Shown here piece by piece: positions 6,791 through 14,564 of a stretch of 44,614 nucleotides of DNA (within the stretch, counting starts at the first letter, position 1; the number at the start of each line of letters is the position of its first letter). Origin of the DNA: a virus; the IMG/VR virus record IMGVR_UViG_3300049927_000218, positions 1 to 44,614 of that record; one strand, 5' to 3'. The notes beneath the pieces are model-generated. The model saw nothing but the letters and a program-made list of their open reading frames with translations, was not told the DNA's origin and ran no database searches. The position numbers and the translations under genes are program-made.

Positions 6791-7170
6791 GACGCCGCCC
6801 CTTGCCGGTCATCGGGAATCGGTTGAGCCTTAGCAGGTTTCAACCCGGGAGGAGGCACGACATGACAAACACCGCGGCTATCGAAGACGCGCTGGGGCGT
6901 CTCGCGGCGCTTGAAGTCCTCGCTGTCCATCTGATGGCGGAGATTCTCAATCGCTTCGGCGATGAGCGGCGCATGGCCGAGCTCATGAAGAACGTAGAGA
7001 ATGATCTGCGTGGCGAAATCCTCTCCGCCGAGTTCGCCAACCAGAGGGTGCTGGAAAAGGCGCTGGCGGCGCACTTCAAGTTTCGCGAGATGCTCCGCCT
7101 CTAGCCGCGCCATCAAGACTTTGTGGCCGGGATCATCCGCAGCCGGGGATGGTTTCTGTGCCTCGCTCAT
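6787..7170 (-). CDS. unknown early protein
   Basis: A 127-residue helical, charged protein. A strong GGAGG ribosome site lies 7 nt before the ATG, inside the end of the upstream gene, and both ends form ATGA overlaps. No domain recognised. The opposite strand of this gene carries an open frame (6862-7104) with its own good ribosome site; see findings. Confidence 0.68.
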   Translation of the reverse strand: MSEAQKPSPAADDPGHKVLMARLEAEHLAKLEVRRQRLFQHPLVGELGGEDFATQIILYVLHELGHAPLIAEAIENLRHQMDSEDFKRRETPQRVFDSRGVCHVVPPPGLKPAKAQPIPDDRQGAAS

Positions 7171-7475
7171 TCCGCCGCCTCCAGCTTTTCGTTCGCCTCT
7201 TCCCCTGCGGGAGAGGAAGGCTGAACGTCCCGCGTTGCGGCGGGTGAGGGCCCGACCGGATGCAGCGCCAGGAGATAGTCGCGGAGGGCGAGCTCCTCGC
7301 TGACAACCGCCTCGGTCAGGCGGTGCAGATTGCGCCTAAGTGTCGAACCCGGCTGCTGCCGGGCGCGGTAGTAGGTCCCGAAATTCACCCCGGCCATATT
7401 GGCCAATACTTTGGGCGGCAGGCGTAGCCGGGCAATTCGTTTGTCAATCTCTTCAATCTGGAGTATCGGTTGCAT
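7167..7475 (-). CDS. Cro-type helix-turn-helix regulator, first gene of the leftward early operon
   Basis: A 102-residue protein with a Cro/CI-type fold: IDKRIARLRLPPKVLANMAGV holds the scaffold and first helix of the HTH (residues 9-29), followed by a recognition helix in NFGTYYRARQQ. The C-terminal 30 residues look disordered. It heads the leftward operon and is divergent from the repressor-like gene, the classic cro position. Its start codon lies inside an operator-like repeat (7469-7487), so autoregulation is likely. Confidence 0.78.
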   Translation of the reverse strand: MQPILQIEEIDKRIARLRLPPKVLANMAGVNFGTYYRARQQPGSTLRRNLHRLTEAVVSEELALRDYLLALHPVGPSPAATRDVQPSSPAGEEANEKLEAAE

Positions 7476-7582
7476 ACTTTCAACTGAGTGAAGTGATTTC
7501 CGTCAACTGTCAAGCGTACAACTACGACATTCCGCAATTGGATTTCCGGTGCAAACAATCGGTCGCATGAATGCAACCGATA
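7464..7582. promoter_or_regulatory. divergent immunity switch: operator pair and promoters
   Basis: A perfect 12-bp inverted repeat (TATCGGTTGCAT at 7464-7475, ATGCAACCGATA at 7571-7582) covers the start region of both divergent genes. A 19-bp sequence at 7469-7487 (GTTGCATACTTTCAACTGA) recurs with 17/19 identity at 8711-8729. A consensus -35 TTGACA reads leftward at 7514-7509; its -10 is weak. These are the best operator candidates for the repressor and Cro-like proteins. Assignment of protein to site is inferred. Confidence 0.7.
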
Positions 7583-8175
7583 AGCCGCATGACACACAGC
7601 ACACGAGCCGCCGGACCCTACGCGATAGCGCTCGCGCCCAGCAGCAATCCTATATTCGCGGCATCCTGGCGGCGAATCACGGGCTGACCGTCACGGATAT
7701 CGCCCGCGTGACCAAGCTGTCGCGCTCAACGCTCACGCGCTTCATGAACGATCCGGAGATCACCACCGTTTTAAGCGGGCCGACGATTGAGGCCATCGCT
7801 CAGGCCTTTTCCAAATCGGCGGGAGCCGGTGGCGGCATGGCTGAGCCCGAAGTTTCACCGCTCCCGCCGCCGACTCCCGGCGAAGATACGGGCCTTGGCC
7901 CCAACCAATATGATTGGCGCATTGGTAAGGTCTTCAATGGGCTGCCTGGCTATCTTCCCGGCGATTTTTTGCGGGTCGAGATGGGCCTTGAACCTCGAAA
8001 CGGCGATGACGTGCTGATTCAGGTCGAGACCCGTGGCGGCGCCACCACTCATCTGCGCCGCTTCCGCCGCAACTTCGCCTTCACCGGCCACGACGCCGAT
8101 CCGCTGTTCGTCGACGGCGAACGCGTGCGGGTCGCCGCCGTGGTTGTCAAAAGCTGGCGGGAGCGCGAAGGCTGA
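7567..8175 (+). CDS. CI-like phage repressor with degenerate S24-like C-terminal domain
   Basis: About 202 residues from the ATG at 7567; a GTG at 7549 is also open, and neither start has a good ribosome site. An N-terminal HTH (LTVTDIARVTKLSRSTLTRF, about residues 40-59) is followed by a proline-rich hinge and a C-terminal domain that aligns in outline with LexA/CI peptidase folds (YLPGDFLRVE, then GDDVLIQVETRGG). The Ser of the usual G-D-S-M motif and the catalytic Lys are not seen, so self-cleavage looks unlikely. Divergence from a Cro-like gene and flanking operators support a lysogeny repressor. Confidence 0.72.
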   Translation: MNATDKPHDTQHTSRRTLRDSARAQQQSYIRGILAANHGLTVTDIARVTKLSRSTLTRFMNDPEITTVLSGPTIEAIAQAFSKSAGAGGGMAEPEVSPLPPPTPGEDTGLGPNQYDWRIGKVFNGLPGYLPGDFLRVEMGLEPRNGDDVLIQVETRGGATTHLRRFRRNFAFTGHDADPLFVDGERVRVAAVVVKSWREREG

Positions 8176-11415: not shown

Positions 11416-13272
11416 ATGCGCCTTGCCACCGTCACGCTCTCCCAGCTCCGCTACAACCCCCTGATCAACGCCAGGGGCTCGACCGAAACCGAGATCGGCG
11501 AGTTGAAGGCGACGATCAAGGCCAAGGGCCTGGGCCAGCCGCTCCTGCTCCGCCAGGCCGCCGACGGTCTCTTCGAGCCCGTCGAGGGCGGAAGACGTTA
11601 CCGGGCCCTGACCGAACTGGCAGCCGAGGGCGCCCTGCCGCCCGATCACCCGATCCCGGCCCTGATCCGCGAGCTCTCCGACGCCGAGGCGCTCGAGCTG
11701 TCCCTCGCCACCGCCGTCACCCGCCTGCCCCTCAACGCGGCGGATGAGGCCGTGAGTTTCGCAACCCTGGTCGAGGCCGGAACCGACGCCACGGAGATCG
11801 CCGCGCACTTTGGCGTGCCGGTGAGGCGCGTCTGGCAGCGCCTGGCCATCGCCAACCTGCCGAAGAAGATTGTCGCGGCGCTGCGCCAAGGCCGGATCGG
11901 CGTCGAAATCGCCGAGGCCTTCACCCTGGGCACCGATGCCAAGCAGGTGGGGAAGCTCTTCGACGATGTGATGAAGAGCGGAGACCTCGACAACGCCCGG
12001 TTCATCCGCTCGCAACTGGTTCAGAAGCGCGTGCCGCTCGGCGCGCGCGAGGGAAAGTTCGTGGGGGTCGACGCCTACCAGGCGGCGGGAGGCGTCATCG
12101 ACGAGGACCTGTTCTCGTTGGATCGCTGGTTCGCCGACGGCAAGCTGCTCAACAAGCTCTTCGATGCTAAGCTAAAATCCGAGGAGAAGCGGCTGGCTGA
12201 CGAAGGCTGGAGCTTCGTGATCGTCGACACGGAAACTTATTCCTCGAAATATTTCGGCTGGCCCGGTCTCAAGCCCGAAGCCCAGCCCAATCTGACGAAG
12301 GAGCAGAAGGCCCGCCGCATCGAACTCGCCACCGAGATCAAGAAACTGCGCAAAGCTCTGGATGGCGACGACGAGGACGGCCAGATCTCCGATGCCCTCA
12401 CCGCGGCTGAAGAGGAGCACGACGCGCTCATCGCCGGCACCTTCACTGAAGCCCAGAAGAAGAAGGCGGGGGTGGTGATCAACTTCAGTGGTGACGAAGT
12501 CAAAATCCGCCTCGGCGTAATGCGACCCGCCGCCGCGAAGAAGGAGCAGGCCACCAAGAAGTCCAAGCAAACTAAAAATTTGTCATCCCCGGGCTTGTCC
12601 CGGGGACCCATCGACGAGCCCGAGGCCGATTTCAGCCAGGCCAACACCGTCGAGATGGCCAGCGCCATGACGCAGGCGATGCAAGCCAAGATCGCCGAGA
12701 CGCCGGCGCTCGCCGCCCGCGCCCTCTGCGCCGCGCTTCTCCATCTCAGCGACGGCACGAATGCGTCGCCCTTCGAGATCGAGCCGGGCCACATCACCGG
12801 CGGCCCCCTCCAGAAAGCCCTAGCCACGGCCCGCAAGCCCTTCAGCGATAAGCAGGGCTTGCTCGAGCTCGGCGACGTCTTCGCCAGGCTCGAGTCCTCG
12901 GACGCCACCACGCTTGCCAGCCTTCAGGCCCTGGCCCTCGGCGCGCTGTTCAGTTGCGGGGGCGCCATCGACGAGGAGCTCCGCCCATTGATCGACGCCT
13001 TCGATCCACATATCACCCTCTGGCAGCCCGGCGAGGAATTCTTCCGCCGCCTGCCCAAGGAGGCCCTCGCCCAGGCACTCGGCGAAGCGGCGATCGCCGG
13101 CGTCACACCCTCGAAGAAGAAGGCCGAGTTGGTGGCGATGTGCCTCAAGAGCCTTGTCCCCCTCGCCTGGCTGCCCAAGCCGCTCCGCGCCCCCAGCTAC
13201 AAGGGTCCCGGCTCTAACACATGGAGCGATGCCCACGCCGCGAACCTCGCCGACCAGATCGCGGCGGAGTGA
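11416..13272 (+). CDS. ParB/RepB/Spo0J-domain protein, large form
   Basis: A 618-residue protein. The N-terminal ParB domain carries GGRRYRAL (58-65), the counterpart of the GERRxRA CTP-binding motif. The second box (LATAVTRLPLNAADEA, about 97-112) lacks the usual E-N-x2-R residues, so CTP switching may be altered. An HTH follows at about 122-143 (TEIAAHFGVPVRRVWQRL). Beyond 200 come a charged coiled-coil (about 290-360), a Lys-rich linker, and an unrecognised C-terminal domain. True ParB proteins are near 300 residues; large plasmid and phage forms like this are less understood. No ParA gene is seen. Possible roles are centromere binding at the parS-like site, transcription control, or interference with host segregation. 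Confidence 0.82.
   Translation: MRLATVTLSQLRYNPLINARGSTETEIGELKATIKAKGLGQPLLLRQAADGLFEPVEGGRRYRALTELAAEGALPPDHPIPALIRELSDAEALELSLATAVTRLPLNAADEAVSFATLVEAGTDATEIAAHFGVPVRRVWQRLAIANLPKKIVAALRQGRIGVEIAEAFTLGTDAKQVGKLFDDVMKSGDLDNARFIRSQLVQKRVPLGAREGKFVGVDAYQAAGGVIDEDLFSLDRWFADGKLLNKLFDAKLKSEEKRLADEGWSFVIVDTETYSSKYFGWPGLKPEAQPNLTKEQKARRIELATEIKKLRKALDGDDEDGQISDALTAAEEEHDALIAGTFTEAQKKKAGVVINFSGDEVKIRLGVMRPAAAKKEQATKKSKQTKNLSSPGLSRGPIDEPEADFSQANTVEMASAMTQAMQAKIAETPALAARALCAALLHLSDGTNASPFEIEPGHITGGPLQKALATARKPFSDKQGLLELGDVFARLESSDATTLASLQALALGALFSCGGAIDEELRPLIDAFDPHITLWQPGEEFFRRLPKEALAQALGEAAIAGVTPSKKKAELVAMCLKSLVPLAWLPKPLRAPSYKGPGSNTWSDAHAANLADQIAAE
12581..12611. repeat. palindromic interspersed repeat inserted in frame in the parB-like gene
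   Basis: TCCCCGGG (12586-12593) and CCCGGGGA (12599-12606) are exact inverted arms around CTTGT, within a segment like the short GC palindromes scattered in alphaproteobacterial genomes. It is translated as SSPGLSRGP at about residues 391-399, in the linker before the C-terminal domain. The identification with a host repeat family is from memory. Confidence 0.65.
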
Positions 13273-13310
13273 GACTCTTGACGAACGCCGCAAATCGGTT
13301 CAGCCTCACG

Positions 13311-13456
13311 GGTGGAGTTAGAACCTCCGTCCGTGGCGGTGCCCACCGGCCTAACAGGCATGGGATTTCCGCTTTAGTCCAGGGTCCACGCGTGCATGTC
13401 CAAGGCGAAAGCCCAAAGACGCGCGGACACGACCTCGGCCGTGGTTCTAACCCTGG
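13311..13456 (+). ncRNA. candidate c4-type antisense RNA upstream of the antirepressor
   Basis: The 245-bp gap 13273-13517 is highly structured. The loop TTAGAAC (13318-13324) sits on a GGAG/CTCC stem and is complementary to GGTTCTAA at 13443-13450, upstream of the antirepressor start. A second TTAGAACCT copy lies at 13470-13478. Other stems are CGGTG/CACCG (13337-13348), GGTC/GACC (13383-13386 with 13431-13434) enclosing TGTCC/GGACA (13397-13401 with 13425-13429), and GGC-GAAA-GCC with a GNRA loop. In phages P1 and P7 c4 RNA is made ahead of ant and pairs with its leader to block translation. Layout and sequence style match; assignment is by eye. Confidence 0.65.
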
Positions 13457-13517
13457 GCGCTTGCGGCATTTAGAACCTGCCTCCCGCGCTCACAACCGGA
13501 GCCCGAGGAGCGCCCTG

Positions 13518-14564
13518 ATGGCCACAGCCCCCGCACGTCCAAGCCTTTTACTTATTCAATGCTACATCAATGACGCCGATGCGATCATCACCGCGGCAGG
13601 CATCGTTAATCTTTCGACGGAACATCCCCAGCAGCGCCGCGCCGTGCTCGAGGGCCTTCTAAATATCGCCACATCGATGCTGGCCGAAGCCAACAAGCGC
13701 ATCGACGAACTTGAGCGGCCCCCCCCTCTATCATGGCGAAGCCGAATGAACGCGACCTCGATCAATTGCTATGCTTTCGACGATCATCTGGTACGCGTCA
13801 TCATGATCGACGGCAGCCCGTGGTTCGTCACCATGGACATTTGCCACATTCTTGGAATCAAAAATTGGCGCGACGCAGTCGAAAAGCTTGATGACGATGA
13901 AAAGGGTGTCGCTTCAACCGACACCCTTGGCGGCAAACAGGAGGTTTTGATCGTCTCCGAGAGCGGTCTATACACGATCATCCTGCGTTCCCGCGCCGCA
14001 ACCACGCCCGGAAGCCCCGCCCATCGCTTCCGCAAGTGGGTGACCGCCGAAATCCTGCCGCAAATCCGCGACACCGGCACCTATTCCGCCCCCAACACGC
14101 TGGCCGATGAGGCGCCCGACCCGGACGAGGAGGCGCTCATCCCCTCCGGCACCCTCAGATGGGCGGCCGAGCTCGCCATGATCCGAGAATGCCGCAGAAT
14201 ATACGGCATCCCGTCATGCCGCGCCCTATGGCCGCAGATCGGCCTTCCCACCGTTCCCGAAATGGCGCCGCGCCTTATCGAGATTTTCGCCGGCGGCGCG
14301 AATGAAGGCAGCACGTCCCTGTTTATTCAGGATTGCTGCATCGAGTTGCCCGGCCATGACACGAGCTTCCTGTCTCTGTGGCAGTCCTATTGCAAATGGT
14401 GCGAGGCGCAAATGCAGGCGCCCGAATCGGTCAACGCCCCCGGCCGCAGCCTTTGCGCGCGCTACGCCAAGAGAAGGAAGCGGGGGCCGAACGGCGGGCG
14501 GTACTACTGCTATATGGGCGTGGCGCTGAAGGACGAAGGGGCTGCGGAGAAAAGCAAGGCATGA
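13518..14564 (+). CDS. BRO-N domain antirepressor
   Basis: A 348-residue protein. The start at 13518 has GAGGAG at 7 nt; the frame is open further upstream but crosses the structured RNA region. A helical N-terminal extension (1-75) precedes a BRO-N domain (about 80-185) with the typical SPWFVTMDICHILGI and SGLYTIILRSR segments and the closing HRFRKWVTAEILPQIR. The C-terminal half is unrecognised. BRO/Ant proteins bind and inactivate phage repressors. With a repressor that seems unable to self-cleave, this is the likely induction factor. Confidence 0.82.
   Translation: MATAPARPSLLLIQCYINDADAIITAAGIVNLSTEHPQQRRAVLEGLLNIATSMLAEANKRIDELERPPPLSWRSRMNATSINCYAFDDHLVRVIMIDGSPWFVTMDICHILGIKNWRDAVEKLDDDEKGVASTDTLGGKQEVLIVSESGLYTIILRSRAATTPGSPAHRFRKWVTAEILPQIRDTGTYSAPNTLADEAPDPDEEALIPSGTLRWAAELAMIRECRRIYGIPSCRALWPQIGLPTVPEMAPRLIEIFAGGANEGSTSLFIQDCCIELPGHDTSFLSLWQSYCKWCEAQMQAPESVNAPGRSLCARYAKRRKRGPNGGRYYCYMGVALKDEGAAEKSKA

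Follow-up and report, generated by a model that had tools for sequence, protein, structure and literature searches.

The C4 RNA of phages P1 and P7 is trimmed by RNase P, which cuts at the 5' end of helix P1 to leave ~77 nt, and represses translation of the antirepressor in trans. The annotation of the phage P1 record places, in order, a1, b1, the C4 RNA, a2, and b2, with the a1/b1 pairing given as putative only, and in the Rfam C4 alignment the outer stem of the phage P1 RNA encloses hairpin 1 and then hairpin 2, whose loop holds b', with a' following before the stem closes. A second small RNA, sRNA-Xcc1 (RF02221) of Xanthomonas, is an 88-nt transcript proven by Northern analysis and end mapping, for which that study did not establish a function (PMC2996969).

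The window, by which we mean the whole 44.6-kb stretch of DNA analyzed, is a virus record in which phage structural genes are present. Its stretch 13273-13517 is flanked by a ParB-N gene and by an ORF with a BRO N-terminal domain (13518-14564, + strand; Pfam Bro-N, 3.7e-20; PHROG anti-repressor Ant, 8.6e-48), which is the putative regulated gene. An antirepressor (BRO) gene is a phage gene able to end dormancy. The ParB-like protein had no relatives among the viral contigs searched. Inside the BRO coding sequence there is a run of eight C residues (13719-13726), past which, in the neighboring frame, a TGA stop overlaps an ATGA start (13746) just before the BRO domain, and because of this overlap the 76 residues preceding the domain may originally have been encoded by a small ORF of their own; as a possible icd/orfX analogue, these 76 N-terminal residues had no detectable similarity to the small ORFs of the other loci. 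Elsewhere in the window, a divergent pair at 7167-8175, made up of an HTH protein (7564-8175, + strand; Pfam HTH_26, 23.2 bits against a cut-off of 22) and a 102-residue ORF (7167-7475, - strand), is a candidate lysogeny switch. The HTH protein is a candidate Cro/C1-type repressor, and two-part immunity in this phage, with the HTH protein as its second part and a presumed link to BRO, is only plausible.

A preliminary description of this gap had proposed an antisense RNA of the c4 type upstream of a BRO antirepressor, in the arrangement of phage P1, and the order of the parts, the three-helix fold, and the kind of target gene agree with that proposal, with strong covariation; the strings it quoted are all present in the sequence at the positions it gave. 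The element occupies 13378-13457 (+ strand, like its helices, boxes, and sites below; 83.7 bits with our covariance model R1), and folding of the stretch 13377-13458 by itself returns helices P1 to P3, including the inner hairpin of P2, at -33.9 kcal/mol, an energy at which 8 of 200 shuffles fold as well. Helix P1 pairs TCCAGGGT (13378-13385) with ACCCTGGG (13450-13457) and is the CCAGGG/CCCTGG pair noticed earlier, which covaries in 64 distinct sequences. Helix P2 pairs 13386-13393 with 13419-13426 and encloses the conserved core AUGUCCAA-GGC-GAAA-GCC-CAAAG (13396-13418), in which the GAAA tetraloop, also already noticed, caps the inner hairpin. The P3 hairpin, CACG-loop-CGTG (13428-13443; helix 5, 97.5% of cells paired), displays the b' box CCTCGG in its loop (13433-13438), and the strand from P3 to P1 contains the a' box GGTTCTAA (13443-13450).

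Complementary sites lie on both sides of the element. Upstream is the a1 site GTTAGAACC (13317-13325), which complements a' perfectly over 9 bases, and it is followed by a probable b1 site, CCGTGG (13331-13336), read from the sequence at roughly the offset where locus L067 has a perfect b1; it has one mismatch with b' and is weak in the window itself. Downstream is the a2 site TTAGAACC (13470-13477), so that a' is complementary to TTAGAACC at both 13470 and 13318, and the complement of b' is found in the b2 site CCGAGG (13503-13508), which overlaps the Shine-Dalgarno GAGGAG (13505-13510). The complementarity of TTAGAAC described earlier is thus real, but the hairpin at 13318 is the a1 site and not the antisense arm, the antisense RNA being 13378-13457; likewise, the a-type pairing had been noticed, and the second pair, CCTCGG with CCGAGG, had been missed. 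The crossing pairs that had suggested alternative structures are also real and reflect two alternative states of GGTTCTAA, which either pairs with a1 or a2 or stays unpaired within the folded RNA. These crossing pairs had also raised the idea of a ribozyme fold, HDV-like or other, which we abandoned on recognizing P3 and the unpaired a' strand.

Further upstream, TTGACG (13279-13284) is probably the -35 box of a promoter that drives the transcript of the RNA and BRO. This assignment comes from its placement across loci, with TTGAC found 70-145 bases upstream of the element in 33 of 60 loci (expectation from shuffled sequence, 3.8), most often between -98 and -129, and with the TTGACG of the window at -100; no accompanying -10 box was identified.

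Within the window taken singly, these signals are modest. The string TTAGAAC has three copies in 44.6 kb, all within 160 bases (13318-13324, +; 13444-13450, -; 13470-13476, +), a count that is weak alone (0.92 expected; 6 of 100 shuffles reach three), and the folding energy of the whole leader is unremarkable compared with shuffled sequence (z -0.55). Evidence beyond chance for the leader signals is comparative. In relatives the three copies co-vary, reading TCAGAAAC/GTTTCTGA/TCAGAAAC in L067, and in L060 they read TCAAAAC/GTTTTGA/TCAAAAC, all three having changed together.

Relatives were reached by several routes. A distant BLASTN match showed the leader to be 74% identical over 13376-13518 to a stretch of the phage MW202613 that carries no annotated gene and precedes an unannotated Rha-type ORF, and the 23-base core matched Shinella plasmids. 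Core patterns gathered 26 viral contigs and 45 loci from named genomes, the latter mostly Alphaproteobacteria with a few MAGs labeled otherwise, e.g., Desulfovibrio. Since selection by pattern fixes the core by construction, its conservation in this set is not evidence, and model R1 was therefore used to search whole genomes without the core pattern; in the members found in this way the core is also conserved, mostly as AUGUCCAR - variable hairpin - YAAAG. The family was present in 30 of 289 genomes sampled from the class of G001 (the Rhizobium genome of locus L089), with up to seven copies per genome, and C4 in 3 of 278 genomes sampled from the same class, so that in these samples from one class the family is about ten times commoner than C4; a phylum-wide draw found it in 39 of 299 genomes. 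No Rfam family matched this element in the window or in 15 relatives, and our literature searches, which covered few subscription papers, found no prior description. By these sequence criteria, the element is a member of a widespread C4-like RNA family that is absent from Rfam 15. A compact relative at L078:53-110 scores only 30.5 bits with R1 and combines the core string and a GGTCCGG/CCGGACC stem with a shortened body. In the viral contig of L075, a match to the type II hammerhead ribozyme (L075:238-318, 55.4 bits) lies ~700 bases upstream of the RNA element.

The covariance support that the preliminary description had asked for in related phages was found in two sets of sequences. In set 1 (64 distinct model-aligned sequences), 98.7% of cells are in standard pairs and the covariation score is 0.680, compared with 0.187 for shuffled controls and at most 0.106 with the partners slid. 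In set 2 (33 distinct sequences from genomes searched with R1 and not with the core string), 97.6% are paired, with a score of 0.738 against at most 0.129 when slid. Both alignments were fitted to the model and so lean toward its structure, though the margin is nonetheless very large. Helix P1 has 99.6% of cells paired and both-side changes in 7 of 8 pairs, and helix P2 has 97.6% and both-side changes in 8 of 8. An RNAalifold run without guidance also arrived at helix P2, with identical compensatory changes. In some rows MAFFT shifted P1 by one position, which the covariance model resolved.

The boxes were examined by comparing b' and a' of each locus with its own flanks and with the flanks of all other loci, counting perfect complements of at least 6 bases. 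Among the 42 antirepressor-type loci (group 1), a1 was found in 90% of own flanks versus 19% of swapped flanks, b1 in 79% versus 14%, a2 in 62% versus 15%, and b2 in 88% versus 14%, such that about 38% of group 1 loci have no 6-base match for a2. Duplex energies agree with these statistics; the loci are mutually related and the counts not independent, which the swapped control corrects in part. In the second, model-found set the corresponding values were 82% versus 18% for a1 and 85% versus 13% for b1, and the a2/b2 signal is weaker there because many of these loci are not of the antirepressor type. Applied to phage P1, the same box finder recovers the annotated a1, b1, a2, and b2.

Antirepressors are among the downstream genes. 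Among 59 downstream ORFs, Pfam gave Phage_pRha for 7, ORF6N for 7, Bro-N for 3, P22_AR_N for 3, and AntA for 1, with over half having no match to the antirepressor Pfam families, and the PHROGs hits of the downstream ORFs are mostly anti-repressors. The remaining 20 of 62 loci form group 2, defined by CACCA immediately 3' of helix P1, in which a1 is kept in 95% and b1 in 90%, and a2 is found in 25% and b2 in 5%. Because group 2 has a1/b1 and not a2/b2, not every member functions in antirepressor control, and these figures suggest that a1/b1 are retained in their own right. The group 2 loci inspected lie on plasmids and chromosomes alongside unrelated genes, often upstream of a protein of ~100 residues with one hydrophobic stretch, and several model-found members have a terminator-like hairpin and T run downstream. 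Chromosomal copies such as L089:4630-4710, L102:4250-4329, L108:2843-2921, and others of group 2, several per genome in some species, have a1/b1 without a2/b2. Downstream of them are CACCAG hairpins and a small protein that seems to span the membrane once, in place of which L084, L111, and L127 have hydrophobic peptides of 35-38 residues.

Very probably, the element gives an antisense RNA of ~80 nt (13378-13457) that pairs with a2/b2 and blocks BRO translation. This reading builds on the fold, its covariation, the complementarity of the boxes with their order and place, and the association with antirepressor genes, and by analogy with phage P1 c4 we infer that the RNA is transcribed from a promoter upstream of a1, processed, and active in trans as a repressor of translation. 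The structured RNA would be cut from the 5' part of the BRO transcript and, folded as P1, P2, and P3, would expose b' in the P3 loop and a' in the P3-P1 strand. Pairing of a' and b' with a2 and with b2, at the BRO Shine-Dalgarno, would then block translation, and it is from this block that the antirepressor is proposed to be off in the lysogen; the BRO gene is probably silenced, given that the RNA carries two segments complementary to its ribosome-binding region. The a1/b1 sites may pair with the same boxes and probably control precursor folding, processing, or availability of the RNA.

Since every box is on the one transcript and has the same orientation, the leader might instead act only in cis, as an mRNA that switches between a1:a' and a':a2 pairing to set BRO translation (or termination) with no separate RNA, and the retention of a1/b1 in group 2 (95% and 90%) where a2/b2 are absent, as well as the terminator-like hairpin and T run that follow several members, would fit such a switch. 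We consider this unlikely, since phage P1 c4, built in the same way, works as an antisense RNA after processing (PMC5320573, PMC12197685), and since a cis switch has no need for the differing, self-matching boxes seen in paralogs of one genome. In some cases such paralogs are nearly identical except in the boxes: in four Rhizobium skierniewicense copies the P3 loop differs and the matching b1 differs with it, the two Rha loci of G020 have different a and b boxes, matched by corresponding changes at a1, b1, a2, and b2, and the two ORF6N loci of L128 do likewise for most boxes. Own box pairs are generally at least as long as cross pairs, with some ties, a pattern expected of trans-acting RNAs that must not cross-react and thus an indirect sign of action in trans.

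The conservation of the AUGUCCAR/YAAAG core, which extends to members found without it and exceeds the needs of a plain hairpin, could also point to a ligand-sensing riboswitch or a protein-binding leader, with the P2 core as sensor and the box pairings as expression platform. This is very improbable: no metabolic gene context is shared, the boxes diversify fast and track their own targets in the manner of antisense recognition, and the core may instead bind a host protein or stabilize the RNA. Repressor-bound DNA repeats acting as operators, to which the occurrence of TTAGAACC twice as direct and once as inverted copy might be attributed, are scarcely credible, because several distinct helices show compensatory changes and the unpaired core is conserved, both signatures of RNA, and because even paralogous loci that are otherwise almost identical have different box sequences. 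A chance resemblance within a GC-rich leader, for which the count of TTAGAAC and the average folding energy of the leader leave room, is refuted by the covariation in 64 and 33 distinct sequences together with the swapped-flank controls, and we regard it as close to impossible.

The antisense reading would extend c4-type control of lysogeny to a large uncatalogued RNA family, mostly of Alphaproteobacteria, linked to five antirepressor families. It would offer a map of phage immunity specificity, through prophages that share a and b boxes, and a natural set of orthogonal antisense RNAs, as well as comparative evidence bearing on the role of the a1/b1 sites.

By every feature that can be tested in sequence the element works like C4, yet it is not a member of RF01695. 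Shared with C4 of phages P1 and P7 are the order a1 b1/RNA/a2 b2, a size near 80 nt, an outer stem enclosing two hairpins (here P1, P2, and P3, with covariation), b' in the loop of hairpin 2 (here CCTCGG), and a' between hairpin 2 and the outer stem (here GGTTCTAA). The a2 and b2 sites likewise lie downstream, with b2 near the start of the next ORF, here overlapping the ribosome-binding site GAGGAG, and the downstream gene is an antirepressor, here Bro-N. As for complementarity of the c4-a1b1 type, a1 occurs in 90% and b1 in 79% of group 1 loci, and in the window a1 is perfect over 9 bases and b1 has one mismatch. The first hairpin differs, being a plain UUCG hairpin in C4, whereas here it contains the AUGUCCAR/YAAAG core. 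The Rfam C4 covariance model, which the preliminary description had proposed to run, gave no match at E<=10 in 12800-14000; the C4 (RF01695) and c4-a1b1 (RF03163) models had no match in the window or in 15 relatives, whereas in phage P1 as positive control they score 68.8 and 51 bits, and R1 in turn does not match phage P1 c4. Because the Rfam C4 and c4-a1b1 models fail to match, we treat this as a separate C4-like family. Among other RNAs, sar of phage P22 is similarly a small antisense RNA that represses antirepressor translation (PMC12197685), but it is not described in that paper as having three helices with split a/b boxes. The C4-related group 1 sRNAs of Acinetobacter baumannii are multicopy, phage-derived, and diversified in their target boxes (PMC5320573), like the Rhizobium paralogs here, but they match Rfam C4 and the present family does not.

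The sRNA-Xcc1 RNAs form a separate Rfam family with no match in the window or 15 relatives, and the RF02221 model matches only L004, L007, and L010 (L004:3862-3948, L007:3859-3940, L010:3863-3948), where copies of 82-87 nt lie directly ahead of BRO genes with matching boxes of the C4 type. These are most complete in L010, in which a' is complementary to TCGAAA upstream and TTCGAAA downstream, and b' to TAATCAG on both sides, the downstream copy immediately preceding GAG. A further C4-like RNA upstream of a BRO gene, L003:3892-3956, scores weakly with R1 (22.6 bits), has no Rfam match, and contains the matching boxes TCGAAAAC/TTCGAAA and CCAAAAA/CCAAAAA. It is conceivable, and we put it forward only tentatively, that C4, sRNA-Xcc1, and the present family are branches of one widespread modular antisense class, and that in the present branch hosts took over many chromosomal copies. 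If so, a constant three-helix scaffold would carry two quickly changing address boxes, new copies would gain new specificities, and the copies taken by hosts would have lost the a2/b2 targets and kept and re-diversified a1/b1, so that the a1/b1 pairing, having been kept after the loss of a2/b2, would be the ancestral working part. The comparison also suggests a function for the sRNA-Xcc1 copies that lie upstream of phage antirepressors.
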